Source: a virus | IMG/VR virus record: IMGVR_UViG_3300030098_004780 | Coordinates: 27,117 to 49,964 of that record | DNA length: 22,848 nucleotides | Reading direction: 5' to 3' (one strand) | In this document: one piece after another, positions 6 through 14,716 of the stretch | Position numbering within the stretch: the stretch's first letter is position 1 | Layout of the letters: every line of letters starts with the position of its first letter | Notes under the pieces: generated by a model | The model's input: the letters and a program-made list of their open reading frames with translations, nothing else | What the model was told of the DNA's origin: nothing | The model's database searches: none | Made by a program: the position numbers and the translations under genes

Positions 6-938
6 ATGATACAATTATTTAAAGTTAATAATCACAACATAGACACTTCTGAATTTTCTAATTTATTACACGACAATGTGGTTGAGGAGTTTGAAAAAAC
101 AATAGCTAATTATGTTGGTGCTAAATATGCATGTGCCATCAATAGTGCCACCAATGCGATATTTTTAATATTTAAAATGGAAGAGTTTCTCAATCCTCGT
201 AAGATAACCATACCGAGTATAATTCCACCTGTTGTTGCTAACGCTATAATAACAAGTGGTAATATAGTTAGATTTAATGACGATGTGGATTGGGTTGGTG
301 ACTCTTACATTTTACATAAATTTAGAAAATTCAAAGTAATTGATTCTGCTCAAAAATTAGAACCACAACAATTCAGAAAAGAGTGTGAACCAGATGATAT
401 TATGTTTTTTAGTCACTATCCAACAAAACCTTTAGGTGGAGCTGATGGTGGAGTAATCGTTACAGATGATTACAACAAATATAAGTGGATGAAAGAAGCT
501 GTTCTAAATGGAACTACATTTGCTGAAAATAATTGGGAAAGGGGGATTTCTTTTCCTGGTTATAAGTTTTATATGAACTCGATGCAAGCAAAAATAGTCA
601 TGAACAACTTTAAAAGTTTTAATCAAAAAATGAAGGTCTTGGGAAAGTTAGTTAATATATATAATAAAGAGTTTGGTTACGAAAACAAAAGTAAACACTT
701 ATACACAATAGAGGTTTTAGATAACGAAAAGTTCATTCAGAATATGAAAGATGCTGGAATAATATGTGGTATTCATTATCCGGCATTACATAAAAATCCA
801 ATATATAATAATGGTTTACAATTTAATTGTCCAAAATCAGAGAAGTTAGAAAAAAGAACCGTTAGTTTACCTATGAATGAAAGTCTTTCATTTTTAGAAA
901 CAGAATATATAGTAGACAAAGTTAAGGAGAACTTGTAG
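6..938 (+). CDS. DegT/DnrJ/EryC1-type PLP sugar aminotransferase
   Basis: A 310-residue protein of the DegT/DnrJ/EryC1/StrS family, which puts an amino group on keto-sugar nucleotides using pyridoxal phosphate. The PLP lysine is visible as K141 in HYPTKPLGGADGG. D113 in VIDSAQ is the expected cofactor-contacting aspartate, S47-T49 in INSATNAI the phosphate-binding turn, and IHYPALHKNPIY near residue 260 a late family motif. It is shorter than the usual 360-400 residues, and the family's loops look trimmed. The start lies only five bases inside the window, so a longer N-terminus cannot be excluded. Its likely partner is the UDP-sugar 4,6-dehydratase at 5368, whose 4-keto product is the classic substrate. 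The stop overlaps the GTG start of the next gene. Family assignment is firm; the exact substrate is not known. Confidence 0.88.
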   Translation: MIQLFKVNNHNIDTSEFSNLLHDNVVEEFEKTIANYVGAKYACAINSATNAIFLIFKMEEFLNPRKITIPSIIPPVVANAIITSGNIVRFNDDVDWVGDSYILHKFRKFKVIDSAQKLEPQQFRKECEPDDIMFFSHYPTKPLGGADGGVIVTDDYNKYKWMKEAVLNGTTFAENNWERGISFPGYKFYMNSMQAKIVMNNFKSFNQKMKVLGKLVNIYNKEFGYENKSKHLYTIEVLDNEKFIQNMKDAGIICGIHYPALHKNPIYNNGLQFNCPKSEKLEKRTVSLPMNESLSFLETEYIVDKVKENL

Positions 939-1495
939 TGAGAATACCACATCATGGAAAGTACCAATGGTTACCAATATTGTACAGATTTGTAGCTTCT
1001 GTGAAACCAAAAAAGATAGTGGAGTTTGGACCAGGAAGAGGATTCACTACAGTAACCATGGCCAAGGCTCTTAGTGATTATAATATAGATGGACATATAA
1101 AGTCTTATGATATGTGGGTTGATGAGTATTGGGGAGATAGTTCTACAACACAGAATACATACAAAGAATGGGGTGTTACTGATTATATTACTTTGGATAG
1201 AATAGATTTCTTTGAGTGGGTTAAAGAGCCTGAGGAATTTGATTTTTTGTACTTTGATGTGGATAATACTGGAGAAAAGTTAGAGATTTTATATAATGGT
1301 GTAAAAGACCAAATAAAAAATGGTTCGGTTGTTTTCTTTGAAGGTGGTTCTAAAGAGAGAGACTTACATGGCGTGAGTGGTAAAAATATGTATGATGTAA
1401 AAGATAAAATAGGATATGAAATACTAACTGAAAATATAAAATACTCTGCGTCCACAATATATGATTCTAAAATCTATGATATGGACTTTGAATGA
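938..1495 (+). CDS. Class I SAM-dependent methyltransferase-like protein
   Basis: A 185-residue protein with the Rossmann motif I of class I methyltransferases, IVEFGPGRGFTT at residues 27-38. An acidic residue, D58, follows the second strand (IKSYDMW) where the ribose contact is expected. A later strand-turn, FLYFDVDN at 103-110, precedes a final helix and strand (VVFFEGG). It is small, about one domain with no extra substrate domain. The start is GTG at 938, overlapping the previous stop as TAGTG, with the purine-rich AAGGAGA about eight bases upstream. The context suggests O- or N-methylation of a sugar, but the acceptor cannot be read from the sequence. The fold is fairly certain, the substrate unknown. 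Confidence 0.75.
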   Translation: MRIPHHGKYQWLPILYRFVASVKPKKIVEFGPGRGFTTVTMAKALSDYNIDGHIKSYDMWVDEYWGDSSTTQNTYKEWGVTDYITLDRIDFFEWVKEPEEFDFLYFDVDNTGEKLEILYNGVKDQIKNGSVVFFEGGSKERDLHGVSGKNMYDVKDKIGYEILTENIKYSASTIYDSKIYDMDFE

Positions 1496-2193
1496 AAATT
1501 TTAATAACAGGTTGTAGTTGGGTTCAAAGGATGGACAAACAAAATTATCCAAAAGATATAGATATTGATTTAAAATCTTTTGGTGGTCAAGGGTTGTGGA
1601 CTATTGAAAGTTATTTAAAAGGTATTCAAAAAGATACTTTTGATTTTATATTTGTGCAACTACCAACTCCAGTTAGAAACGAAATTAATTCAGTATCTAC
1701 TACAGAAAAGTTTAATGAATTTATTGGTGATATTAAAAAAATGGGTGAGAAAGTAGCTGCTAATAAATGGTTAACTGAATATAAACAAAAAATTATAGAT
1801 ATAAATAAGATTCACAAAAATATAGTTTTCTTTTTATATAATGTTGGTGGTTATCCATTCAGACATCCGTATGATTATGGAAAGGATATTGATAATAAGA
1901 TGGTGGATTTTTTTAAAAAAACTAAATTATCTCATATTAATTTGTCGTTTGAAGGGATTGCGGGATATGGTTTAAATGAAACAAAATGTGATGATTTAGA
2001 GTTTTGGGAATATTATCACATTAACAATCCCAAGAACCAATCGGATAAGGATTTTAAAAAGTATTGGAGTATAATTTCACCTAAAAATTGGATTAGTATA
2101 GATCCACATCCGAATAAAAAAGCTGATAAATTAGCTTTGGATATGATTTGTAACTATATTACAGGAGGTCAGAATGATAAAAAAGATAGTTGA
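1492..2193 (+). CDS. SGNH/GDSL-like hydrolase or acyltransferase
   Basis: A 233-residue protein with the spaced blocks of the SGNH hydrolase fold. The start MKILITGCSW carries a candidate nucleophile, S9. A glycine block SFGGQGL lies at 29-35. A strand FIFVQLPTP follows near 53-60, and SIDPHPNKKAD at 202-212 offers D204 and H206 as the acid and base. The usual GxND block is not obvious, and the D-to-H spacing is one residue shorter than the commonest DGxH form. Catalysis is therefore inferred. In polysaccharide loci such proteins remove or add O-acetyl groups, which would fit this cassette. It starts within the preceding stop (ATGA overlap), and its last bases overlap the small gene at 2174. 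Confidence 0.6.
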   Translation: MKILITGCSWVQRMDKQNYPKDIDIDLKSFGGQGLWTIESYLKGIQKDTFDFIFVQLPTPVRNEINSVSTTEKFNEFIGDIKKMGEKVAANKWLTEYKQKIIDINKIHKNIVFFLYNVGGYPFRHPYDYGKDIDNKMVDFFKKTKLSHINLSFEGIAGYGLNETKCDDLEFWEYYHINNPKNQSDKDFKKYWSIISPKNWISIDPHPNKKADKLALDMICNYITGGQNDKKDS

Positions 2194-2278
2194 TTATTTT
2201 AAAAATTGGAATAAAAAAAGAAAATTCAAAAAAAGAATGAAAAAAATGAATGATCCAGATCATTTCATATATAAATAG
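2174..2278 (+). CDS. Small basic hypothetical protein (34 aa)
   Basis: A 34-residue reading frame that opens inside the end of the SGNH-like gene. It is preceded by a near-perfect Shine-Dalgarno, AGGAGGT at 2163-2169, four bases before the ATG. The protein is very basic, with one Trp (W12) in a Lys/Arg-rich helix followed by an acidic end, NDPDHFIYK. A similar layout occurs in the 33-residue peptide at 12615: hydrophobic start, Trp, KxxKKR run, then Asn-Asp. No domain is recognised. The strong ribosome site and coupling to both neighbours argue that it is translated. Its role is unknown; an RNA- or membrane-surface-binding peptide is only a guess. Confidence 0.6.
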   Translation: MIKKIVDYFKNWNKKRKFKKRMKKMNDPDHFIYK

Positions 2279-2287
2279 GAGTTACAT

Positions 2288-3751
2288 GTGAGGATATTAG
2301 GAGTAAACGCTTTAAATCACGATGCTGCAGTTGCCGTTTTAGAGGATGGTGAGATAAAGTTCGCAGCACATTCTGAGAGATATAGTAGAAAGAAAAATGA
2401 CTATCTTTTGAATGATGAAATAATGAATGAAGCTCTATCGTATGGTGAGCCAGATGTGGTTTCATATTTTGAAAGACCTTGGTTAAAGAAATCTCGTCAG
2501 TTATACGCTGGGCAATACGATGAAGTGTTTAGGAGAGATAATACTCCTAAAGAGTATCTGAAAAGATGGATAGGTGACAAACAAATTCAGTATGTGCAAC
2601 ATCACGAAAGTCATGCTTCTGCTGGATACTACACATCAAAATTTGATGAAGCTTGTATTGTTGTTATTGATGCTATAGGTGAGTGGGAAACTGTTACGAT
2701 ATGGTATGGTAATGGTGATAAGTTAGAAAAGAGATGGAGTCAAAAATATCCAAAATCCATAGGTCTTTTTTATTCGGCTATGACTCAACGGTTAGGATTG
2801 AAACCACAAGAGGATGAGTACATCCTTATGGGTATGGATGCTTGGGGAAATAGAGATGAAAAAATAAAGAACAAAATACATAGTGATTTGGTAGATAGTA
2901 ATATAAATCTTCATAAAGGATGTAGATGGTGGGATTTAGATTTTTACAAAGATGATGGTTCGGAACAATGGAAGTTTGACATAGCATCCAACACACAATG
3001 GGTATGTGAAGAGGAGATAATGAAGGTAATGAATAAAGCTAAACAAATAGTTCCTGAATCAAATAATCTAGTCTTTATGGGTGGTGTTGCTCTTAATTGT
3101 GTCGCTAATGAAAAGATAGCTAAAGATTGGGATGGTATTTGGATAATGCCTAATCCTGGTGATGCCGGTTCATCTCTCGGTTCAGCTGCTAGAGTGTATG
3201 GTAGAAAAATAAATTGGGTTCACACATTCTTAGGAACTGATATAAAAGGTAGTTATCCAGTTAGAAGAGGTGTTGATTTATTACTAAAAGGTGAGATTGT
3301 TGGTATAGCAAATGGAAGAGCGGAATTTGGACCTAGAGCATTGGGAAATCGTTCTTTAATCGCAGATCCAAGAGGTGATGATATTAAAGATAAGGTTAAT
3401 GTAATTAAGAAAAGACAAAAGTTTAGACCATTTGCTCCATCTGTGTTGGAAGAACATGCACACGAAATATTTGATTTACCTGTAAATAGAGCTTCTTACA
3501 TGCAATTTACTGCTAAATGTAAATATCCAAAAAAGTATCCAGCTATATGTCATGTTGATGGTACTTCAAGAGTTCAGACTATTAACAGAAAAGAGAATCG
3601 TGGATACTATGATTTGATAAAGAGGTTTTACAAAGAAACAGGATGTCCTATGGTATTGAATACAAGTCTTAACATAAAAGGTCAACCGATAGTTAATACA
3701 AAACAAGATGGTAGAGACTTTGAAAAGTTTTACGGAGTTAAAGTATTGTGA
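2288..3751 (+). CDS. NodU/CmcH/TobZ-family carbamoyltransferase
   Basis: A 487-residue member of the NodU/TobZ O-carbamoyltransferase family, which makes carbamoyl-adenylate from carbamoyl phosphate and ATP and passes the carbamoyl group to a hydroxyl. Visible family motifs are LGVNALNHDAA at 4-14, the metal-binding HHESHASA at 105-112, GGVALN at 265-270, FGPRALGNRS at 347-356, FRPFAPS at 379-385, and NTSLNIKGQPIVNT near the C-terminus (458-471). Both the kinase-like N-terminal domain and the YrdC-like C-terminal domain look complete, although the tail after the last motif is short. The start is GTG at 2288 with AGGAG six bases upstream; the ATG at 2286 runs straight into a stop. It sits among sugar genes, so a carbamoylated sugar is the simplest product. 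Related phage enzymes have been reported to act on 5-hydroxymethylcytosine in DNA. Confidence 0.92.
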   Translation: MRILGVNALNHDAAVAVLEDGEIKFAAHSERYSRKKNDYLLNDEIMNEALSYGEPDVVSYFERPWLKKSRQLYAGQYDEVFRRDNTPKEYLKRWIGDKQIQYVQHHESHASAGYYTSKFDEACIVVIDAIGEWETVTIWYGNGDKLEKRWSQKYPKSIGLFYSAMTQRLGLKPQEDEYILMGMDAWGNRDEKIKNKIHSDLVDSNINLHKGCRWWDLDFYKDDGSEQWKFDIASNTQWVCEEEIMKVMNKAKQIVPESNNLVFMGGVALNCVANEKIAKDWDGIWIMPNPGDAGSSLGSAARVYGRKINWVHTFLGTDIKGSYPVRRGVDLLLKGEIVGIANGRAEFGPRALGNRSLIADPRGDDIKDKVNVIKKRQKFRPFAPSVLEEHAHEIFDLPVNRASYMQFTAKCKYPKKYPAICHVDGTSRVQTINRKENRGYYDLIKRFYKETGCPMVLNTSLNIKGQPIVNTKQDGRDFEKFYGVKVL

Positions 3752-4644
3752 AAAAGATATTGGTGATAGCTACAGGCTGGCATTTCAGTTCTCATTTCTA
3801 TGAGAGTATGATTAAACAAGAAGTTCCTGAAGGTTGGAGCGTGGATTATTTTTGTGTAGCACACAGACTTCCAGAAGATGATAATACTGTTCAAGAAAAA
3901 GAAGATGTCAGAAACTCAGATGGTGATGATTTCTTAAATCAATTAAATCAAATGATGTATGAGTATCCAATAACCACTCAGCAGATATCTAGTTTGGGTT
4001 GGCATTTTATGCTTGAAGAAAATACTGTCGGTGACATGGAGTGTTTCAATCAATGGTCTGAATATTACGACTATAAGGAGTATGACATTATTTGTATAAC
4101 TCATGATGACAATCTTATAATGTCTGAAAAAATATTTTTAGATATTGTCGATACTAACATCGAACTTTATAAGCCAATAAAAGAATCAAGAGTTGGAAGA
4201 GATAAATTTAAAATTGAATTAGTAAAAAATGATAATGATTGGTACTTTTTAGACAATGGTTATTCAGAGGACATTCCAAAAGCTTTTACACCAAGAGGTT
4301 CATTTAGTTTTTATAAAAAAGAATTAATAGATTTGTTACCCGACAATAAATTCAATATGTCTGAGGACGGTGGACTAGGTATTGTGAATAGAGAAGGAAG
4401 AACTGATAGTGTCGGTTATGATGGTATTAAAGCTTGGAACACACACGCTGGAACATTTAGAGATTTTTTATATAGTGGTTTGGGAGAGTTAGAGTTAGTA
4501 AACAAAACTAGGTGGTTTTCTAACACAAAAAGAATTAGTAAATATTGCATTGAGGGTGAGAGAGGATTTGTCAGTAATTTTAGAGCTGGTGAGGACTACT
4601 TAGAAAACATACAAAAACTATTGAAGGATATAGGATGGATATAA
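3748..4644 (+). CDS. Putative GT-A-like glycosyltransferase
   Basis: A 298-residue protein starting GTG in a GTGA overlap with the carbamoyltransferase. The first strand MKKILVIATGW and the stretch YDIICITHDDNLIMSEK near 114-130 resemble a nucleotide-sugar fold ending in a metal-binding acidic DDN. A later GSFSFYKKELIDLLP is like the acceptor-side loop of many GT-A enzymes. No family signature is complete, so the call rests on these partial patterns and on the neighbours, which include three clearer glycosyltransferases. It contains no signal peptide or membrane segment and would act in the cytoplasm. It could instead be an unrelated cassette protein of unknown function. Confidence 0.5.
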   Translation: MKKILVIATGWHFSSHFYESMIKQEVPEGWSVDYFCVAHRLPEDDNTVQEKEDVRNSDGDDFLNQLNQMMYEYPITTQQISSLGWHFMLEENTVGDMECFNQWSEYYDYKEYDIICITHDDNLIMSEKIFLDIVDTNIELYKPIKESRVGRDKFKIELVKNDNDWYFLDNGYSEDIPKAFTPRGSFSFYKKELIDLLPDNKFNMSEDGGLGIVNREGRTDSVGYDGIKAWNTHAGTFRDFLYSGLGELELVNKTRWFSNTKRISKYCIEGERGFVSNFRAGEDYLENIQKLLKDIGWI

Positions 4645-5366
4645 CACAACCAATAATTCACGATAGACACATAGTAAAACAAGCTATGGAACAGTTGATT
4701 CAAAGTGGACCTGTACAGTTTGAGAAGCCAGATGATTTGACTATAGTTACTTGTAGAAATGAGGGAACATTATCTGATAGAATAATACCACATCTATCAG
4801 GTTATGAGGAACAATCTATATTGGAAAGAAATATGGAGTATTTAGGAATGGATTTAGTTGTTCTTAGAGATGCTAGACTTCCGTGGAGAAATACATTTAA
4901 GTTTGAGATGTTACATAACTATTTGAATTCAGATGAATGTAAAACAGAATACTTTATGTGTTTAGATGCCATAGATGTGATATGGGTTGATGAACCACAA
5001 AAAGTAATGGATATATTTAAGTCTTTTGATTGTGATGCTCTTTTTATGTCAACACATTCGATAGATGGTTATAGTTGTATGCCAGAGATAAAAAAATGGG
5101 TGGATACTATTAATAAATCAGGAAGATATTTGAATAGTGGAGTTTACATAGGTAAAACATCTTTTATAAAGGAAATGATAGAGGAGACTATGAAATATGC
5201 TATTCCACACGGTGTGACTATGGGGGAATATCATGAATGGTTAAAAACCAATCCTAAAGACTATCCTAAAGGTTCTCAAGATCAAGACGTATTTAGATAT
5301 ATAGAAAAAAAGTTTTATCCAAGGTTAAAAGTAGATTACGATAACCAAATGGCATTTAGGAGTTGA
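4635..5366 (+). CDS. PLOD/GT25-like glycosyltransferase
   Basis: A 243-residue protein with the pattern of the glycosyltransferase domain of lysyl hydroxylase-type (PLOD/procollagen galactosyltransferase-like) enzymes. K89 in TFKFEMLHNYL comes before the metal-binding CLDAIDVIW with D111 and D114. LNSGVYIGK at 166-174 follows, then GSQDQDVF at 213-220, and a closing aromatic DYDNQMAF. Order and spacing match that family, so transfer from a UDP-sugar is likely; donor and acceptor are unknown. The start overlaps the previous stop by ten bases, with an AAGGA site six bases upstream. Eukaryotic relatives glycosylate hydroxylysine on proteins, but phage versions more often sit in surface-glycan loci, as here. 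Confidence 0.7.
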   Translation: MDITQPIIHDRHIVKQAMEQLIQSGPVQFEKPDDLTIVTCRNEGTLSDRIIPHLSGYEEQSILERNMEYLGMDLVVLRDARLPWRNTFKFEMLHNYLNSDECKTEYFMCLDAIDVIWVDEPQKVMDIFKSFDCDALFMSTHSIDGYSCMPEIKKWVDTINKSGRYLNSGVYIGKTSFIKEMIEETMKYAIPHGVTMGEYHEWLKTNPKDYPKGSQDQDVFRYIEKKFYPRLKVDYDNQMAFRS

Positions 5367-5367
5367 T

Positions 5368-6270
5368 ATGAAGATATTAATAACAGGTGGAACAGGAACT
5401 GTAGGGAAAGCCATAATAGCACAGAATGATAATGAGTACATTAGTATTAGTAGAAATGAAGAAAACATAACAAATTTAAAAAGAGAGTATCCAAATGTTA
5501 AATGTTATGTGGGTAATATAGAGGATAAATCTTTACTACTTAGAGTATTCAAAGAAGTAAAACCAGATGTAGTGGTTCATTCAGCTGCTATGAAACACAT
5601 TGATTTGATGGAGACTAATCCAATTGCTGGGTGTAATGTAAATGTGATGGGTAGTTTAAATGTGGTAGAGGCTAGTGTCATAAATGATATTCCAATTACA
5701 GTTGGTGTCAGTACAGACAAAGCCTGTTTGTCAGAGAGTGTTTATGGTGCTTCAAAGTATCTAATGGAGAGGGTTTTTATGAACACTAACACATACGACA
5801 ATAGATTTGCGTTGACTAGATTTGCTAATGTGGCACATAGTGCTGGTTCGGTATTACCATTTTGGTTGAAGTTAAAAAAAGAAGGTAAACCACTTAAACT
5901 TACAGATTCAAACATGAATAGATTAATATTCACTAAAGAAGATGCAGCTGGTTTAATCAATAGAACGATATGGTTTACTAGAGAAAATGGTGGTGGTTTT
6001 GTAAAGTCGTATAAAATGAAATGCGTAAACATGTTAGATTTAGCTAAAGTTATTTCTAATGACATAGAAATAGTTGGTAAAAGACCAGGCGAAAAAACAG
6101 ATGAAGATTTAATATCAGAAAGAGAAATATCAAATACTTTTATTTACGGAGATGATATTCACATAAGGATGGAAAAAAACGAAGGTAATAACAAACTATC
6201 TGAACCTTATAACTCTGCTAGTGCTGAAAAAATGACCAAAGAAGAAATGAAGAAATTAGTATGGGGTTAA
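5368..6270 (+). CDS. UDP-sugar 4,6-dehydratase (FlaA1/PseB/CapD type)
   Basis: A 300-residue short-chain dehydrogenase with the N-terminal NAD(P)-binding ITGGTGTVGK at 5-14. HSAAMKHIDLMETNP near 71-85 is the signature of the polysaccharide-biosynthesis dehydratases FlaA1, CapD and PseB. The catalytic set STDKA (115-119), Y126 and K130 (YGASK) is present. These enzymes turn UDP-GlcNAc into a 4-keto-6-deoxy sugar nucleotide. The DegT aminotransferase at the start of the cassette could then aminate that product. The length matches the short soluble form without membrane helices. An AGGAG site lies five bases upstream. Whether it inverts C5 (PseB type) cannot be told from the sequence alone. Confidence 0.87.
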   Translation: MKILITGGTGTVGKAIIAQNDNEYISISRNEENITNLKREYPNVKCYVGNIEDKSLLLRVFKEVKPDVVVHSAAMKHIDLMETNPIAGCNVNVMGSLNVVEASVINDIPITVGVSTDKACLSESVYGASKYLMERVFMNTNTYDNRFALTRFANVAHSAGSVLPFWLKLKKEGKPLKLTDSNMNRLIFTKEDAAGLINRTIWFTRENGGGFVKSYKMKCVNMLDLAKVISNDIEIVGKRPGEKTDEDLISEREISNTFIYGDDIHIRMEKNEGNNKLSEPYNSASAEKMTKEEMKKLVWG

Positions 6271-7241
6271 GTAACTACAAAATAGCTTGGTTTACCGAAG
6301 GTGGTTGGCAAGGTAAGGTTTCATTAGATAATCCTAATATGAGAAATGACGTATCTACAAAATATATCTTGGGTGCTGAACATTATCCCATCTTTCAATT
6401 ACCACAGGTGTTACAACACTTTGGTGATAATCATTTTGACTTTGGCATAGTAACACTACCTAAAACAAATGTTGATAAATTGATGACATTTGATATGTTG
6501 GGTGATTTGAAAAAACTATGTAAAAAAACCATATCAATGCAGGAGGGTCCTCATTGGTATTTCCAAGATTACACAATGGAACAGCAGATTTGGTGGTTTA
6601 ATGCTCTTACAGAATTTGATATGTTGTTTGCTCATAATCATAAAGATGTAAACTATTACAGAGGTATCACAAACAAACCTGTACATAAAATGCCAACACT
6701 AATGTTAGCTGAAAGGTTGGGTATCACGCCACGAAATGAGTGGAGTGATGCTGTGATTATTGGTGGTAATATGGTTAGGTGGTATGGTGGGTTTGATTCT
6801 TATATAGTAGCTCAAGAATTTAACATGCCAATTGTTGCTCCATCAATGGGTAGAAAAATAGATAGAGAAGATGAGATGGATATACAACATCTACCTTACA
6901 TGACTTGGGTGGATTGGATGAATAATTTAAGTCAATACCATGTTGGAGTTCATTTAATGCCAACTCACGCTGCTGGAACATTTGCATTAAACTGTTCTTT
7001 TCACGGTATACCTTGTATTGGATATAGTGGTTTAGACACACAAGAAGAGTTACATCCAACATTAACGGTAGAGGATGGAGATTTACAAGGTGCAATTGAA
7101 TTAGCAAAACAATTAAAAAACGAAACATTTTACAAACATTGTAGTGCTAGCACAATGGCTCACTACGAAAGTTCATTGTATACGGAGAGTAATTTTGTGC
7201 CATACATAACTAATATATTAGAGGAATTACATAATGGATAA
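6261..7241 (+). CDS. GT-B fold glycosyltransferase (GT4-like)
   Basis: A 326-residue protein whose C-terminal half resembles the donor-binding domain of GT4-type glycosyltransferases. HVGVHLMPTHAAGTFALNCSF is followed by a strand and turn HGIPCIGY and a run Q-EELHPTLTVED-DL-A. That is the usual pattern of an acidic or polar clamp on the sugar nucleotide, then a glycine-rich turn and a strand. The N-terminal half (KIAWFTEGGWQGK) is compatible with the acceptor domain. It overlaps the dehydratase by ten bases and the next gene by eight, so it is probably translated with both. The upstream ribosome site is weak, consistent with coupling. Donor and acceptor are unknown. Confidence 0.7.
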   Translation: MGLSNYKIAWFTEGGWQGKVSLDNPNMRNDVSTKYILGAEHYPIFQLPQVLQHFGDNHFDFGIVTLPKTNVDKLMTFDMLGDLKKLCKKTISMQEGPHWYFQDYTMEQQIWWFNALTEFDMLFAHNHKDVNYYRGITNKPVHKMPTLMLAERLGITPRNEWSDAVIIGGNMVRWYGGFDSYIVAQEFNMPIVAPSMGRKIDREDEMDIQHLPYMTWVDWMNNLSQYHVGVHLMPTHAAGTFALNCSFHGIPCIGYSGLDTQEELHPTLTVEDGDLQGAIELAKQLKNETFYKHCSASTMAHYESSLYTESNFVPYITNILEELHNG

Positions 7242-8460
7242 GGTAATAAGTTTTATACAACCAAGTAGAAACAATCTAAAGTACCTTAAGTGGTCTTACA
7301 ATAGTATCAGAAAGAACTTAGGATACCGACATGAAATATGTTGGGCTGATGATTTCTCCGATGATGGGACTTGGGAGTGGATGCAAGAGATTGCTGAAAA
7401 AGATGGTAATATAAAGATACATCGTAACGAAGGACCTACGAGGTTAGGTCACACGATACTTTACGATACGTTAGTAGACATGGCGACAAGTGATATCGTA
7501 ATGATTTATCATGCTGATATGTATGCCTGTCCTAAAATGGATGAAGAAGTTCTAAAACATTTGGAACGAGGTAAAGTAGTTAGTGCGACTCGTATTGAAC
7601 CACCACTACATCCTGATGGTCCTGAAAAGATACTACAAGACTTTGGTATAGAACCAGAAGAGTTTGACGAGTTAGGTTTGTTAAAGTTTCTTGATGATGA
7701 TAAACAAGGTGAAGATAAAGTTACAGATGGTATCTTTGCTCCTTGGGCAATATATAAAGATGACTTTACAAGTATTGGTGGACACGACCCGTTGTATGCT
7801 CCACAATCAAAAGAGGACTCTGATATATTTAATAGGTTTGTATTGGCTGGATACGAAACGATACAGACTTGGCAAGGCTATGTATATCATATGACTTGTA
7901 GAGGTTCACGATTTAAAGATGGAGCTATGAGAAATCCAGCAGGTCAAGTGTTTATGAAGGGTAGAGAATCGTCAGAGTGGTTAGCTCAGAATCTTAGGTC
8001 AACTCGTAATTTTATTCGTAAGTGGGGACATATGGTGAAACACGATGAGTATTTGAAACCTATCATACCACCAAAATATGACATAGGATTTGTTGCATAC
8101 AATTGTGATAAACAAATGTTGTATGAATTAGAACCTTGGTGTAGTGACATTTATCTAGATTATGGTTCGGTAGGTAGATACTCAAATGAGTATCGAATGG
8201 AGGAGCAATCAAATACTCAGTTTAATTTAGACAATAAGATATGGATGTATGGAAATAAAAAACCACGAGACTTAAAAAATAACATAATAGTTGAGTTTGA
8301 TTGTAATCAATTGAACAATCAAAATTTTCAAACCATTGTCAATTTATCAGAAATATTACAACAAAGTGGAGAGTTGGGGAAGATGGAACTTGATATATTC
8401 AAATTTCACATCAACTCTTTAAAAACATATGAGAAGGAGTTAATAACATGCGAGCATTAG
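7234..8460 (+). CDS. Family 2 glycosyltransferase with C-terminal extension
   Basis: A 408-residue protein with a GT2 (GT-A) catalytic domain in its first 220 residues. SFIQPSRNNLKYL opens the fold. The nucleotide-binding acidic pair is D39-D40 with SDDGTWEWM following. IYHADMYACP at 91-100 gives the metal-binding DxD-like site. SKEDSDIFNRF at 182-192 carries the catalytic-base ED pair. The last 180 or so residues contain no motif I recognise and are richer in Asn and Gln, perhaps binding the acceptor or a partner. No membrane segment is visible. It overlaps genes on both sides (8 and 13 bases). The enzyme class is fairly secure and the substrate unknown. Confidence 0.85.
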   Translation: MDKVISFIQPSRNNLKYLKWSYNSIRKNLGYRHEICWADDFSDDGTWEWMQEIAEKDGNIKIHRNEGPTRLGHTILYDTLVDMATSDIVMIYHADMYACPKMDEEVLKHLERGKVVSATRIEPPLHPDGPEKILQDFGIEPEEFDELGLLKFLDDDKQGEDKVTDGIFAPWAIYKDDFTSIGGHDPLYAPQSKEDSDIFNRFVLAGYETIQTWQGYVYHMTCRGSRFKDGAMRNPAGQVFMKGRESSEWLAQNLRSTRNFIRKWGHMVKHDEYLKPIIPPKYDIGFVAYNCDKQMLYELEPWCSDIYLDYGSVGRYSNEYRMEEQSNTQFNLDNKIWMYGNKKPRDLKNNIIVEFDCNQLNNQNFQTIVNLSEILQQSGELGKMELDIFKFHINSLKTYEKELITCEH

Positions 8461-9371
8461 TTACAGGTGGTGCTGGATTTGTAGGCACTAACTTAATAAA
8501 AAGATTATTAAAAGATGGACATGAAGTCATATCCGTAGACAACTATTCAACGGGAAAGAAGGAAAATGAACAAGAGGGTTGTTTATATTATGATAAAGAT
8601 TTATCAGATACTATATGGTGGTCTTTGTGGAATACTTGTGAATGTGATATTACTTGTGATTGTCAAATAGAGCCTGTTGATATTATATTTCATTTAGCAG
8701 CACTACCAAGAATAGTGCCATCTTTTAAAAAACCAGTAGATACCTTCAAGTCAGGTCCGATGGCAACAATTAATGTATTAGAGTGGGCTAGACATTGGGA
8801 AACGCCTGTCATATACGCTGGTTCTTCATCTGTTACCGGAGATGTGTTTGCTAACCCTTATACATTCACCAAATGGCAGAATGAACACTTATTGGACTTG
8901 TATAACAAAATATACCAACTTCCAACTTCGATATGTAGATTTTACAATGTATATGGTGAATATCAAGCAAGTGAAGGTAGCTATTGTAATGTACTAGGTA
9001 TTTTTCAGAGAAAGTTTAAAAAAGGAAATCCATTAACAATTACTGGTGACGGAGAACAGAGAAGAGACTTTACTCATGTCGGTGATATTGTTGACGGTTT
9101 AATTAGATGTGGAGAGGCTCATTTAGATGTTTGGGGTAACAAAGATGTAAATGGACAATCATTTGAGTTGGGTAATGGTAAAAACTACTCCATAAATGAA
9201 ATAGCTAAAGCTTTTGGAGATTATCCCACAGAATATATTGATGCCAGACCTGGTGAAATAAGAGAGACACTAAATAAAGACACAAAAGCTAAAGATGTCT
9301 TAGGTTGGAAACCTAGTGGAGATATTATTAAATTTATCGAAGAAAACTATGTTGTTTGTAAGACTAACTAA
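8448..9371 (+). CDS. NAD-dependent epimerase/dehydratase (GalE-like)
   Basis: A 307-residue extended short-chain dehydrogenase. The Rossmann glycine motif is TGGAGFVG at 6-13, and the ribose-binding acid is D31 in SVDNYSTG. HLAALP at 82-87 is the NAD-contact strand. S126-S128 (GSSSVTG), Y138 and K142 (YTFTK) form the active site. RFYNVYG and GDGEQRRDFTHVGD follow as in UDP-glucose/UDP-GlcNAc 4-epimerases. It is oddly marked by a cysteine cluster CECDITCDC at 64-72, in the loop before the AA motif. The ATG has AAGGAG eight bases upstream inside the previous gene. It likely supplies a C4-epimerised or 4-keto sugar nucleotide to the cassette's transferases and is the last recognisable sugar gene. 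Confidence 0.85.
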   Translation: MRALVTGGAGFVGTNLIKRLLKDGHEVISVDNYSTGKKENEQEGCLYYDKDLSDTIWWSLWNTCECDITCDCQIEPVDIIFHLAALPRIVPSFKKPVDTFKSGPMATINVLEWARHWETPVIYAGSSSVTGDVFANPYTFTKWQNEHLLDLYNKIYQLPTSICRFYNVYGEYQASEGSYCNVLGIFQRKFKKGNPLTITGDGEQRRDFTHVGDIVDGLIRCGEAHLDVWGNKDVNGQSFELGNGKNYSINEIAKAFGDYPTEYIDARPGEIRETLNKDTKAKDVLGWKPSGDIIKFIEENYVVCKTN

Positions 9372-9836: not shown

Positions 9837-10058
9837 ATGGCAAACGATCACGCTCAAGACAGATATGATCCACCAAAAGTTGGTAGTGATTTTGACAAAG
9901 AATTCTTTGGTGATGTGAATATCGGAGAAGTATTTAGACTAAGACCAAATAGTCAAGCTAAGACTTTTCGTAAAGTTAAAGATGGAGTTGCACTTGATGT
10001 GAAAGAACTAAAAGAAGTTCAGTTAGGAGATAAAGACGAAATCTATGTCAAGTCGTAA
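9837..10058 (+). CDS. Small hypothetical protein (73 aa)
   Basis: A 73-residue hydrophilic protein without cysteines, signal peptide or membrane segment. The N-terminal part is polar (NDHAQDRYDPPK) and probably extended. The C-terminal half alternates short strands (GEVFRLRP, KTFRKVKDGVALDV, DEIYVKS), which would suit a small beta domain. GGTGGAGG at 9823-9830 lies just before the ATG. The end overlaps the helix-turn-helix/zinc-ribbon gene by 14 bases, so the two are probably co-translated, and this protein could assist or modulate that one. No family is recognised. Confidence 0.65.
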   Translation: MANDHAQDRYDPPKVGSDFDKEFFGDVNIGEVFRLRPNSQAKTFRKVKDGVALDVKELKEVQLGDKDEIYVKS

Positions 10059-10551
10059 CTTTCAAAAGCCGATAAGAATCAAAGGTAAGAAACTCGTTCT
10101 TACCAAGAAGATGATTGAAGATGCTCAATCTCAGACTAAATCTAATATGGCAGCTGCTCGTTGGTTAGGTGTAAGTTACCTAACTTACCGTAAGTATGCT
10201 AAAACATACGGCTTGTTTGAGGGGCATCTAAATCCATCAGGTGTCGGCATTAAAAAAGGTTATGGTAGATGGATAAAATCACTTGACCAAATTCTTGATG
10301 GCACTAAAAAGTATCGTATGAGGGCTGGGTACATTAAGAAACGACTACTTAAAGACAAGTGGGTTGAAGAAGAATGTAGTTCTTGTGGGTACAATGAAAT
10401 TATCATAGGTAAAGAATCAGTTGCTCTTCGTTTAGATTATGTGGACGGAGATGTAACAAACAACACATTAGAAAATCTGAGATTGTTATGTCCTAATTGT
10501 TTCCTTTCACATAACGGACATATGCCATCGTCAGAGAGGTTTTACAAATGA
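10045..10551 (+). CDS. Helix-turn-helix protein with degenerate HNH/zinc-ribbon domain
   Basis: A 168-residue protein. Residues 26-52 (QSQTKSNMAAARWLGVSYLTYRKYA) look like a helix-turn-helix. The C-terminal part has the HNH-endonuclease zinc frame: C111 and C114 (CSSC), then DYVDGDVTNNTLENLRLLCPNC with C149 and C152. In active HNH enzymes of this subtype the first position reads LDHIDGD and the end reads CPNCH. Here the first histidine is Y132 and the last is F153, so cleavage is doubtful while metal binding is kept. H156 and H159 lie just after. I infer a DNA-binding regulator or structural relic rather than a nuclease. It overlaps the genes on both sides. No ribosome site is near the ATG, consistent with coupling. 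Confidence 0.75.
   Translation: MSSRNFQKPIRIKGKKLVLTKKMIEDAQSQTKSNMAAARWLGVSYLTYRKYAKTYGLFEGHLNPSGVGIKKGYGRWIKSLDQILDGTKKYRMRAGYIKKRLLKDKWVEEECSSCGYNEIIIGKESVALRLDYVDGDVTNNTLENLRLLCPNCFLSHNGHMPSSERFYK
10171..10188 (+). repeat. Palindrome GTAAGTTA-CC-TAACTTAC
   Basis: Two perfect eight-base half-sites separated by CC, with an overlapping second dyad TTAGGT (10165-10170)/ACCTAA (10178-10183). It lies in the part of the gene encoding the helix-turn-helix of a predicted DNA-binding protein. It could be an operator for autoregulation, a competing-hairpin RNA element, or a coincidence of coding sequence. The two dyads cannot fold at once. Confidence 0.45.
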
Positions 10552-10749: not shown

Positions 10750-11379
10750 ATGAAGAAAGTAATTAATTGTATAAAAGAACACAACCCTATTATAAACAAA
10801 AAACTTCGTGAGGTCTCAGTTGAAGAAGGACTATCTATCGCAACAGAACTATTTCAGATACTTAACAAAAGAGGGGACGGTATTGGGTTGGCAGCTAATC
10901 AAGTGGGTATTGATGCACAAGTGGCCGTTGTCAATGTTCGTGAACCTTTGGTACTCATCAATCCGAAAATCATTTCAAAAGAAAATGAAATACCTTTTTA
11001 CGAGGGTTGTTTATCTTATCCAGGCAAAGGAGTACACACCAAACGATACAGAGATGTGATTATATCCACAGAACAATCAGAAAGTGATTGGTATTTTAGT
11101 GGAGCAGAAACACCTACCGACACTAAAGGTAGTTGGGAAAAACAACGAAGTAAAAAACAAGATGCAGAGTTAAGAACCTTGGAGTCTGTCTGTGTTCAAC
11201 ATGAAATCGACCATCTCAACGGTGTTGTATGTATGGATAGAAAAGTAGATACTACTGTCCAAGTTGAAAAGAAAATAGGTCGTAATCAATTAGTTACTAT
11301 CAAAAAAGATGATGCAGTTAAAGTATTAAAATACAAGAAGGCACAAACTCTTTTAAATCAAGGCTGGGTGATGGAATGA
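10750..11379 (+). CDS. def: Peptide deformylase
   Basis: A 209-residue peptide deformylase, which removes the formyl group from the first methionine of new proteins using a metal ion. All three motifs are intact: GIGLAANQ at 44-51, EGCLS at 85-89 with the metal-binding C87, and QHEIDH at 150-155 with two metal histidines and the catalytic glutamate. An insertion of about 35 residues (DWYFSGAETPTDTKG onward) separates motifs 2 and 3. An extra C-terminal segment (KKIGRNQLVTIKK... LKYKKAQTLLNQGW) follows. Both insertion and tail make it longer than the usual phage enzyme of 130-150 residues. Marine phage deformylases are thought to help make host or photosystem proteins during infection. It has its own strong promoter and apparently no leader, and the stop overlaps the mazG start. 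Confidence 0.95.
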   Translation: MKKVINCIKEHNPIINKKLREVSVEEGLSIATELFQILNKRGDGIGLAANQVGIDAQVAVVNVREPLVLINPKIISKENEIPFYEGCLSYPGKGVHTKRYRDVIISTEQSESDWYFSGAETPTDTKGSWEKQRSKKQDAELRTLESVCVQHEIDHLNGVVCMDRKVDTTVQVEKKIGRNQLVTIKKDDAVKVLKYKKAQTLLNQGWVME

Positions 11380-13206: not shown

Positions 13207-13328
13207 TGGACATTGAGACTTTAAATTATCTTGGATATGGAGAGGTATTTGAAATATCATTATGGATAACAATTATGTATGTTGGTAAAGGTTTCATTGA
13301 TGAGTTTTTCAATCGGAGATTAAAGTAA
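13206..13328 (+). CDS. Small membrane-associated protein (40 aa)
   Basis: A 40-residue protein bounded on both sides by TAATG overlaps. It begins acidic (MDIETLNYLGYGEVFE), has a short hydrophobic stretch at 18-27 (SLWITIMYVG), and ends basic (FFNRRLK). The charge arrangement would fit a helix with its C-terminus inside the cell, though the hydrophobic stretch is short for a full crossing. No family is recognised. It is the last of five tiny genes leading into the putative exported protein at 13328. Confidence 0.5.
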   Translation: MDIETLNYLGYGEVFEISLWITIMYVGKGFIDEFFNRRLK

Positions 13329-13918
13329 TGTTAGATAGTTTATTAGCCGGTGTAATGTTATTCAGTTCATTCGCGGCAAGGACAGCCAATGTCGAACCTA
13401 ATCCTGATGACTATGAAATTAGTGTCGGATTAAATCATGAAAATTTTTACGTCAATAGACAATGGGAGAGGGAACTTGGTGAACCTTATGTTGATGATTT
13501 AATTTGGTTGAAACTAGACAATCAAATATATTTCAAGCCTGAGTACATGAATAAACAGAGTCGTAATGTCAAGTATCTAAAGATTGACTGGCGAAGTAAG
13601 TGGAAAGATTGGTCGTTTGGATTTACAAGTCGTAATGATGAAGATAATATTCTTAGTCAAAATTTTGTAACATTCATATCTTTTGGTATGAGTAAAAAGA
13701 AAAAGTATCATAACGATAAGATAGAAGTTGAGATTACATTCGATGGATACTTCCCACCAAACGAAGAAGAAGATAGAGATACATTTGAGTTTGAGGATAA
13801 ATTTAAAGTAAGCTGGAAACTTACTGATAAGATACGAATATACAATCTTGGAGAAATCTCTAAGTTACAAGGTAAACAGTTCTACAAGGCTAAAATAGGT
13901 TTTGAATATTCATTTTGA
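13328..13918 (+). CDS. Putative exported beta-strand-rich protein
   Basis: A 196-residue protein of no known family. The N-terminus MLDSLLAGVMLFSSFAA is hydrophobic and followed by a polar stretch, like a signal peptide, but it lacks the usual positive charges. The mature part alternates hydrophobic and polar residues in many short strands (LIWLKLDNQIYF, KDWSFGFTSR, KIEVEITFDGYF, KFKVSWKL). It ends KAKIGFEYSF, with the closing phenylalanine and alternating pattern typical of outer-membrane beta-barrels. I infer a small outer-membrane or periplasmic protein made by the phage. It is translated from a TAATG overlap. A soluble beta-sandwich is the main alternative. Confidence 0.5.
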   Translation: MLDSLLAGVMLFSSFAARTANVEPNPDDYEISVGLNHENFYVNRQWERELGEPYVDDLIWLKLDNQIYFKPEYMNKQSRNVKYLKIDWRSKWKDWSFGFTSRNDEDNILSQNFVTFISFGMSKKKKYHNDKIEVEITFDGYFPPNEEEDRDTFEFEDKFKVSWKLTDKIRIYNLGEISKLQGKQFYKAKIGFEYSF

Positions 13919-14072: not shown

Positions 14073-14291
14073 ATGATGAGTGTTTGGGAAACAGAAAGAA
14101 AAGAAATTGCCACATGGTTGTCAGGTTATCTTGCTATGATAAAGAAATGGGTAGATAGAATACTTGATAATGAAGATCACGATGTTAATAAGATTAAAAT
14201 TATAACTCAGATTGATGAGTGGATACAATGGTTAGAGGAAACCAAATTAAAGATTATAAAAATGAAGGATGTAAAAATAGAAAAGGAGTAG
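14073..14291 (+). CDS. Small helical hypothetical protein (72 aa)
   Basis: A 72-residue protein predicted to be almost wholly helical, with regularly spaced Trp (W5, W15, W26, W50, W53) and charged residues. The reading frame also offers an ATG at 14043 in a TAATG overlap. AGGAG at 14064-14068 instead favours 14073 or 14076. Two long helices, the second ending KIIKMKDVKIEKE, could form a coiled coil or hairpin. The stop is two bases before the lipoprotein ATG, whose ribosome site lies in its last codons. Function unknown. Confidence 0.6.
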   Translation: MMSVWETERKEIATWLSGYLAMIKKWVDRILDNEDHDVNKIKIITQIDEWIQWLEETKLKIIKMKDVKIEKE

Positions 14292-14293
14292 CA

Positions 14294-14716
14294 ATGATAA
14301 GGTTATTTTTGTCATTAGTTTTTTTAGTTATCGGTTGTTCAAATCCAGTTGCAGTTGAAGAGGATTGTGAGTGTGTATTTGAAATAACGTCAACTTTGCC
14401 ATCGGTTGGTGGTGTATATCAATTAGAATTTAATCATAACCTACAACAAACCTATTCAGTTTTAGACATCACAACGGAATGTGGTTGGGCTCAACACATA
14501 TCATGGGAATCAAAAGAAATTTATCAAATTGGGTATGACCGGATTAATTTAGTTAATCCGTCAAGTATGACCGATGAAGATGGTAATGCTCATATAGTTT
14601 TTGCTGTTTGGGAAGAATTTATAGATTCAACCATAACTATTTATGGCAGTTACATAGACGACCACGGTCACGAAAAAATAGACTCTGTAAAGGTAGAGGT
14701 TGTAGACAGCGAGTAG
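14294..14716 (+). CDS. Predicted phage lipoprotein with Ig-like body
   Basis: A 140-residue protein with a clear lipoprotein signal peptide: positive R3, hydrophobic LFLSLVFLVIG, and lipobox VIGC with C15 as the acylated cysteine. The S16-N17-P18 after it does not carry the Asp that retains lipoproteins in the inner membrane, so outer-membrane sorting is possible. The mature part starts acidic with Cys-rich DCECVFEI, then short strands to the end (SVKVEVVDSE), like an Ig-type sandwich. AAGGAG stands five bases before the ATG, which was preferred to a longer in-frame start. Phage lipoproteins such as T5 Llp block the phage receptor after infection. A similar exclusion role is a reasonable inference. 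Confidence 0.72.
   Translation: MIRLFLSLVFLVIGCSNPVAVEEDCECVFEITSTLPSVGGVYQLEFNHNLQQTYSVLDITTECGWAQHISWESKEIYQIGYDRINLVNPSSMTDEDGNAHIVFAVWEEFIDSTITIYGSYIDDHGHEKIDSVKVEVVDSE

Follow-up and report, generated by a model that had tools for sequence, protein, structure and literature searches.

A predicted glycan locus with constant ends and a variable centre in a T4-like phage

Extent of the locus

We analysed a 22,848-nucleotide stretch of viral DNA (hereafter the window), bases 27117–49964 of the linear, 49,964-base IMG/VR record IMGVR_UViG_3300030098_004780 (G000), which opens with a run of sugar-related genes. Judged from sequence, this run makes up the right-hand third of a glycan locus with 33 genes, carried by a T4-like phage. 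On sequence comparison, the locus combines recognisable enzyme families, a shared gene order and active sites that are conserved; it is under purifying selection, some of its interior genes have been exchanged between phages, and it lacks recognisable membrane export proteins. That it is a functional glycan locus is highly probable. The fuller statement, that the glycan is placed on a virion protein in the cytosol, we hold at close to even odds (about 0.48), the target being its least certain part. The product is probably a custom sugar coat for the phage's own particles or for its host.

In the window, ten open reading frames (ORFs) on the same strand, overlapping or closely spaced, form an uninterrupted run from 6 to 9371, one fewer than a first-pass annotation of the sequence had counted. 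That annotation had also called the decoration set complete, whereas the majority of the cassette lies upstream: the first window gene begins at the window edge, which cuts the cassette, and the same-strand run extends upstream to span contig positions 8899–36487 (start approximate; 33 ORFs, g15–g47). The full run encodes about a dozen glycosyltransferases, and its GC content is that of the right flank. The lineage has a T4-like family-B DNA polymerase, and gp23 is present in the relatives G005 and G010; the collection of named phages holds no near-identical phage.

Conserved order and purifying selection

Sixteen viral contigs carry at least 8 of 14 core genes, and the order of these genes is identical in 15. 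The active-site residues that we checked are invariant or nearly so; the HHxxHA motif of the carbamoyltransferases, for example, is kept with one or two single-residue exceptions. The first-pass annotation had proposed a coordinated glycan pathway and had named beforehand gene order and active sites in relatives as the comparison that could overturn it. The genes stand together and in order there with the checked residues kept, and the proposal is supported.

Purifying selection on the cassette genes is evident in the sequence alignments. Several genes retain 80–97% protein identity though their silent sites are near saturation, and g34 retains 97% protein identity at a silent-site identity of 53%, where 38% is expected by chance.

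Constant ends and a variable interior

The slot of the locus is fixed: a PD-(D/E)XK nuclease lies to its left, and an HNH gene and a deformylase lie to its right. The right border is g51, an HNH-type gene (10045–10551, plus strand) whose product is 36% identical to the HNH endonuclease of Flavobacterium phage vB_FspM_immuto. It is followed by the peptide deformylase g52 (10750–11379, plus strand), a right-flank gene in common with Microcystis phage Mel-JY01 (34% identical); among named phages, Mel-JY01 has the nearest DNA polymerase (46%). At the left end, homologues of a GT4–GT4–GT2 glycosyltransferase series diverge in step with the phage backbone; against the relative G001, median identity is 47% for left-end genes and 49% for replication-side genes. 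Because these end glycosyltransferases are common to Mel-JY01, immuto and, for a g15-like GT4, Rhodothermus phage RM378, they appear to belong to the phage lineage.

Exchange of interior genes was assessed by identity at fourfold-degenerate sites, for which base composition alone gives 38%. Against G001, g23, g24, g36, g37 and g44 reach 72–85%, compared with 45% for backbone genes; the excess is significant for each of the five genes after correction and for the pooled interior (p = 2e-4). No interior excess was seen against G003, and interior exchange between phages is therefore patchy. A recent transfer of the whole cassette is unsupported, since genes were exchanged singly and the signal reaches significance with G001 but not with G003. 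In two further loci (L055 and L079) the right flanks have about 80% silent identity yet the interior differs. Recent movement between diverged phages is seen for some interior genes.

Alternative interior genes, sampled from loci of limited length, fall into 108 clusters, the 92 longest of which were scanned. They include PEP mutase (phosphoenolpyruvate mutase), GDP-mannose and dTDP-glucose dehydratase, heptose, aminosugar, sulfotransferase and PIG-L families, a variation that resembles, by analogy, that of bacterial O-antigen loci. A PEP mutase–nucleotidyltransferase fusion (TIGR02320, above cut-off) occurs in the alternative interiors of about ten contigs (for example, L099:3062–5467), which suggests phosphonate-decorated glycans in some relatives. 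Nonulosonic-acid-like genes (NeuB-like and CMP-sugar-synthetase-like, by eye) are present in L137:4238–6403 and other A5 members, and two interior genes match the sialyltransferase family GT29.

Genes of the window

Families of the window genes, all on the plus strand, were assigned with Pfam, PHROGs and NCBIfam. Each of the five sugar-modifying activities named by the first-pass annotation (aminotransferase, methyltransferase, carbamoyltransferase, 4,6-dehydratase and epimerase) is backed by Pfam. The first gene, g38 (6–938), encodes a DegT-family sugar aminotransferase of short form (310 residues; PF01041, E 2e-30), in which Asp113 and the pyridoxal-phosphate lysine Lys141 are invariant across 21 relatives. 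Its 5′ end (6 to about 100) differs from an otherwise near-identical contig (L010:7719), a pattern that would fit the swap of a short allele. The S-adenosylmethionine-dependent methyltransferase g39 (938–1495; Methyltransf_24, E 3.5e-7) has 20 relatives, sited mainly between homologues of g38 and g42. The nucleotide-sugar 4,6-dehydratase g44 (5368–6270; PF02719, E 2e-57) is of the PseB/CapE type, matching the structures 4j2o (E 1e-38) and 2gn4 (E 2e-35) of the FlaA1/PseB and CapE group in the PDB, and contains STDK and YGASK. A nucleotide diphosphate (NDP)-sugar epimerase, g47 (8448–9371; PF01370), ends the locus and is 48% identical to an immuto protein.

Two inserted genes lie between g39 and g42. 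The first, g40 (1492–2193), had been called an SGNH-type enzyme; the motifs GCSW and DPHPN, read by eye, agree with that call, whereas a Pfam search gave nothing significant, even at E ≤ 1. The second, g41 (2288–3751), is a NodU/TobZ-type O-carbamoyltransferase (PF16861/PF02543), homologous to GdmN and TobZ.

Four likely glycosyltransferases had also been proposed. Pfam identifies g43 (4635–5366) as PLOD-GT-like (PF25342, E 3e-8) and g46 (7234–8460) as a GT2 enzyme (PF00535) at the conserved right end of the locus, 49% identical to an immuto protein. For g45 (6261–7241), which belongs to a 24-member family, an AlphaFold2 (AF2) model built from the alignment of relatives (predicted local distance difference test score, pLDDT, 88) matches BshA in Foldseek (E 7e-10), and we confidently predict a GT-B fold close to GT4 enzymes. 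The fourth, g42 (3748–4644), is more weakly backed, by an invariant DDN in its 17-member family and by a model made in the same way (pLDDT 84) with a weak fold match to TarP (E 5e-5, template-modelling score, TM, 0.42); it is a probable GT-A-like glycosyltransferase.

Upstream genes and a candidate sugar pathway

The upstream two thirds of the locus contain two GT4s, one GT2, a TOD1/MUCI70-like protein, a DUF5672 protein and several transferase-like orphans, together with a cytidylyltransferase, a HAD/NTP-transferase fusion and a second epimerase. Nearer the window lie a carbamoyltransferase (g31, 7 kb upstream of the window edge), an FkbM methyltransferase (g32), a sugar C-methyltransferase (g33), a dTDP-sugar-isomerase-like (3,5-epimerase-like) cupin (g34, slightly under the Pfam cut-off), an FdtA isomerase matching the QdtA/WxcM ketoisomerases (g35), a 2-oxoglutarate (2OG) oxygenase (g36) and an RmlD-like reductase (g37). 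The three-domain architecture of g33 (Methyltransf_13/23/14 in Pfam) is of the KijD1/TcaB9 type, and a PDB search found full-length homology to both enzymes (E 1e-74). Its Tyr199-x-Glu201-His202, which we take to be the catalytic motif of sugar 3-C-methyltransferases, is invariant in 16 C-methyltransferase relatives. KijD1 and TcaB9 methylate C3 of a 4-keto sugar.

Together, these genes cover the enzyme classes that synthesis of a 3-C-methyl-branched amino-deoxy nucleotide sugar would require, and they show that phages possess the enzymes for a methylated amino sugar with a branch. An NTP-transferase domain (g25) and the 4,6-dehydratase g44 would yield a 4-keto-6-deoxy nucleotide sugar, which g33 would methylate at C3 to create a branch. 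Two cupins, g34 and g35, could epimerise it or shift the keto group, g38 would aminate and g37 reduce it, and the methyl- and carbamoyltransferases g29, g32, g39, g31 and g41 could cap the product. The oligosaccharide may then be started and finished by the conserved GT4–GT4–GT2 series at one end and the GT2 and epimerase at the other, with the swappable interior supplying its outer sugars.

The methylation module recurs as a group: among contigs found with g33 as seed, 35 of 51 have at least four of g34–g38 nearby, including phages just 50–60% identical in g33. Named phages in the collection give no g33 match above 32% identity. A bacterial donor of g33 was considered and rejected, the nearest genomic match (66%, L171) being itself a piece of a related phage and SAR11 homologues falling below 50%. 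This piece (NHIV01000032.1), with homologues of g12–g16, g19–g22, g33 and g37, is binned in the metagenome-assembled genome (MAG) 'bacterium TMED198', which may reflect MAG contamination or hint at a host.

We tentatively propose, with the balance somewhat against us, that the locus is the viral equivalent of the serotype loci of bacteria. Constant end glycosyltransferases, similar to the backbone in their divergence, would prime an oligosaccharide on a virion protein and a swappable interior would make the virion glycan lineage-specific; the same proposal includes serotype-like interior types, with a 3-C-methyl amino sugar, a phosphonate, or a heptose or deoxyhexose. If true, part of it would be a route, encoded by the virus, to a branched-chain amino sugar, and we know of no precedent for such a route.

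Acceptor of the glycan

By a simple hydropathy scan, all 33 proteins g15–g47 lack a predicted transmembrane helix, and none of the 108 sampled clusters from alternative interiors yielded a multi-helix protein or one resembling a flippase or polymerase. PF01943, PF02397, PF04932 and PF00953, which cover initiation, flipping and polymerisation/ligation, were absent from the 16 records, which are fragments and in which ABC-type export families were not searched; the same four families were detected in 13, 9, 9 and 12 of 14 control genomes. The missing membrane machinery fits either a cytosolic acceptor (a virion protein or DNA, for example) or a borrowed host pathway. DNA as acceptor is unlikely. 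We lean weakly towards a virion protein, because the search for lipid-linked export genes was negative and because divergence of the end glycosyltransferases follows that of the backbone across host phyla; their conservation across unrelated hosts would favour an acceptor inherited with the phage. A collagen-like virion acceptor, an idea raised by the PLOD-like glycosyltransferase and the 2OG oxygenase, was rejected, no (GXY)8 stretch being present in G000, G001, G003 or G010.

Several points weigh against a virion acceptor and the pathway behind it. The sequence reveals no acceptor, and the records are fragments, so that the lack of export genes is provisional. Initiation, flipping and ligation could come from the host, and a universal host lipid carrier would also account for the conserved end glycosyltransferases. 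The sequence does not spell out the order or stereochemistry of the sugar steps, nor the carrier nucleotide or the identity of the sugar, all of which are inferred.

The strongest alternative is remodelling of the host surface, whereby phage enzymes would make or modify lipid-linked sugars for the host to flip and ligate, and the resulting change in lipopolysaccharide (LPS) or capsule during infection would bar adsorption by other phages. This is a serious contender, though short of an even chance. The interior gene content resembles O-antigen loci, rapid interior turnover suits competition between phages, and published work on cyanophages and pelagimyophages reads their clusters in this way (PMC7029224, PMC7824862). 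Against it, neither flippase, polymerase/ligase nor initiating transferase was found in the 16 records, and the cassette has no transmembrane protein. Temperate-phage gtr modules carry their own membrane proteins, whereas none is predicted here.

Carbamoyltransferases and DNA modification

Returning to the carbamoyltransferases of the locus, we found the g40–g41 pair in just one other cassette among the relatives. Members of the g41 family were found in 45 viral contigs, nearly all of which lack the cassette, and the member in G003 lies outside it. An SGNH-like neighbour stands within three genes of a g41 homologue at 10 of 25 distinct loci (two of them this cassette), compared with 7 of 250 background ORFs. 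The pair looks like a late-inserted, mobile unit. The first-pass description of the glycan as carbamoylated is unsupported as far as it draws on the window gene alone, which is half of this two-gene insertion and comes from a family found mainly outside cassettes. By gene distribution, g31, with 11 relatives (one of them the same phage), is the more regular carbamoyltransferase of the locus.

A further alternative is DNA modification, in which hydroxymethylated bases in the phage genome would be glycosylated or carbamoylated by some of the enzymes. The locus is next to replication genes, a primase-like and a helicase-like gene flank some g41 homologues, and a 5-hydroxymethylcytosine (5hmC) carbamoyltransferase is known from phages (PMC8670742). 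However, both g41 and g31 keep ALGNRS where the 5hmC enzyme has ALCNTT, and g41 is 24% identical to that enzyme. Both also keep G421 and R423, and not W408 (TobZ numbering, placed by motif). The thymidylate-synthase/hydroxymethylase family is absent from 15 of the 16 records, G000 included, with one weak match in G003, and a multi-sugar pathway would be excessive for a base. We consider this reading very improbable; for g41 as a DNA 5hmC carbamoyltransferase in particular, residues and missing partner genes speak against it despite the homologues among replication genes.

Whether the sugar clusters of marine phages are functional or simply 'stuffer DNA' has been called open (PMC3037559), and a cargo without function would suit the rapid interior turnover, but invariant catalytic residues, intact frames, an order kept in 15 contigs and proteins such as g34 constrained at diverged silent sites make it scarcely credible here. 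Conserved order and active sites, constrained proteins and interior exchange argue instead that such clusters work.

Host and neighbouring genes

Phages with the same slot infect Flavobacterium and Microcystis, and the domain layout of a TonB-dependent receptor suggests a host among the Bacteroidota. This receptor (about 920 residues, Plug and CarboxypepD_reg) is a recurrent gene of the phage lineage, with matches in 332 viral stretches. G000 holds a fragment at the contig edge, outside the window (G000:2–349); a full copy lies at L168:5267–8056 on the minus strand, and further copies are in L251–L330. The best 80 of the 332 stretches have the receptor flanked by a B12-dependent ribonucleotide reductase (74 of the 74 uncut) and usually by DNA polymerase, and its conservation (74–100%) exceeds that of the polymerase (about 55%). 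Import of B12 for the reductase is one possible role of the receptor, and exclusion of other phages is another. Within the window, two apparently secreted proteins, one outer-membrane-barrel-like (13328–13918; signal-like start, C-terminal F) and one lipoprotein-like (14219–14716), have relatives in other contigs and no family match.

Comparison with known systems

Virus-encoded sugar-nucleotide enzymes and glycosyltransferases glycosylate capsid proteins in chloroviruses and mimiviruses (PMC9614988); these are eukaryotic viruses with no homology shown to the cassette, and the analogy is one of mechanism only. Bacterial O-antigen and capsule loci likewise combine nucleotide-sugar genes and glycosyltransferases around a variable centre, but their initiating transferase, flippase and polymerase/ligase were not found in the 16 fragmentary records, where ABC-transporter families were not searched. 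Temperate gtr serotype-conversion modules have a membrane flippase, GtrA, and membrane-bound transferases, whereas the cassette has no predicted transmembrane helix and, of such transferases, shows just a weak GtrB-like GT2 match for g46. KijD1 and TcaB9 resemble g33 in architecture and in Tyr-x-Glu-His; they act in actinomycete antibiotic pathways, whereas g33 is in a phage and its C3 methylation is predicted.

The cyanophages P-SSM2, S-SSM7 and S-SM2 are, as here, T4-like marine phages with large LPS gene clusters, whose function was left open (PMC3037559, PMC2984593). Unlike the cassette, those clusters lie near hli03, phoH and tRNAs, and cyanophages gave no match to g15 and none above 26% to g33. 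The host recognition cluster of pelagimyophages is also a variable island of T4-like phages with glycosyltransferases and sugar genes, but it lies between VrlC and gp14, among tail-fibre genes (PMC7029224), whereas the cassette lies by replication genes, tens of kilobases from baseplate genes. This position rules out the cassette as that known cluster.

The closest parallels are in the same slot. Mel-JY01 (PP395634, 83441–89690) has the flanks of the cassette (PolB, clamp, clamp loader, PD-(D/E)XK nuclease and deformylase) and homologues of g15, g16 and g19, but its slot holds about eight transferase-type genes without homologues of the sugar-synthesis interior. In immuto (NC_055915, about 49–60 kb), slot and plan are as in the cassette: PD-(D/E)XK, GT4, GT4, a small gene, GT2, aminotransferases and others, epimerase, GT2 and HNH, with common genes 36–49% identical. 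Its glycan genes are shorter overall, at about 11 kb; the phage search gave no g33-type C-methyltransferase match there, and no g41-like carbamoyltransferase is annotated in its slot. Set beside the published cyanophage and pelagimyophage clusters, the locus is similar in kind but sited elsewhere, with constant ends, a variable centre and a C-methyl amino-sugar module. With the fixed slot also present in a cultured Flavobacterium phage, the question of where a phage glycan is attached becomes directly testable.

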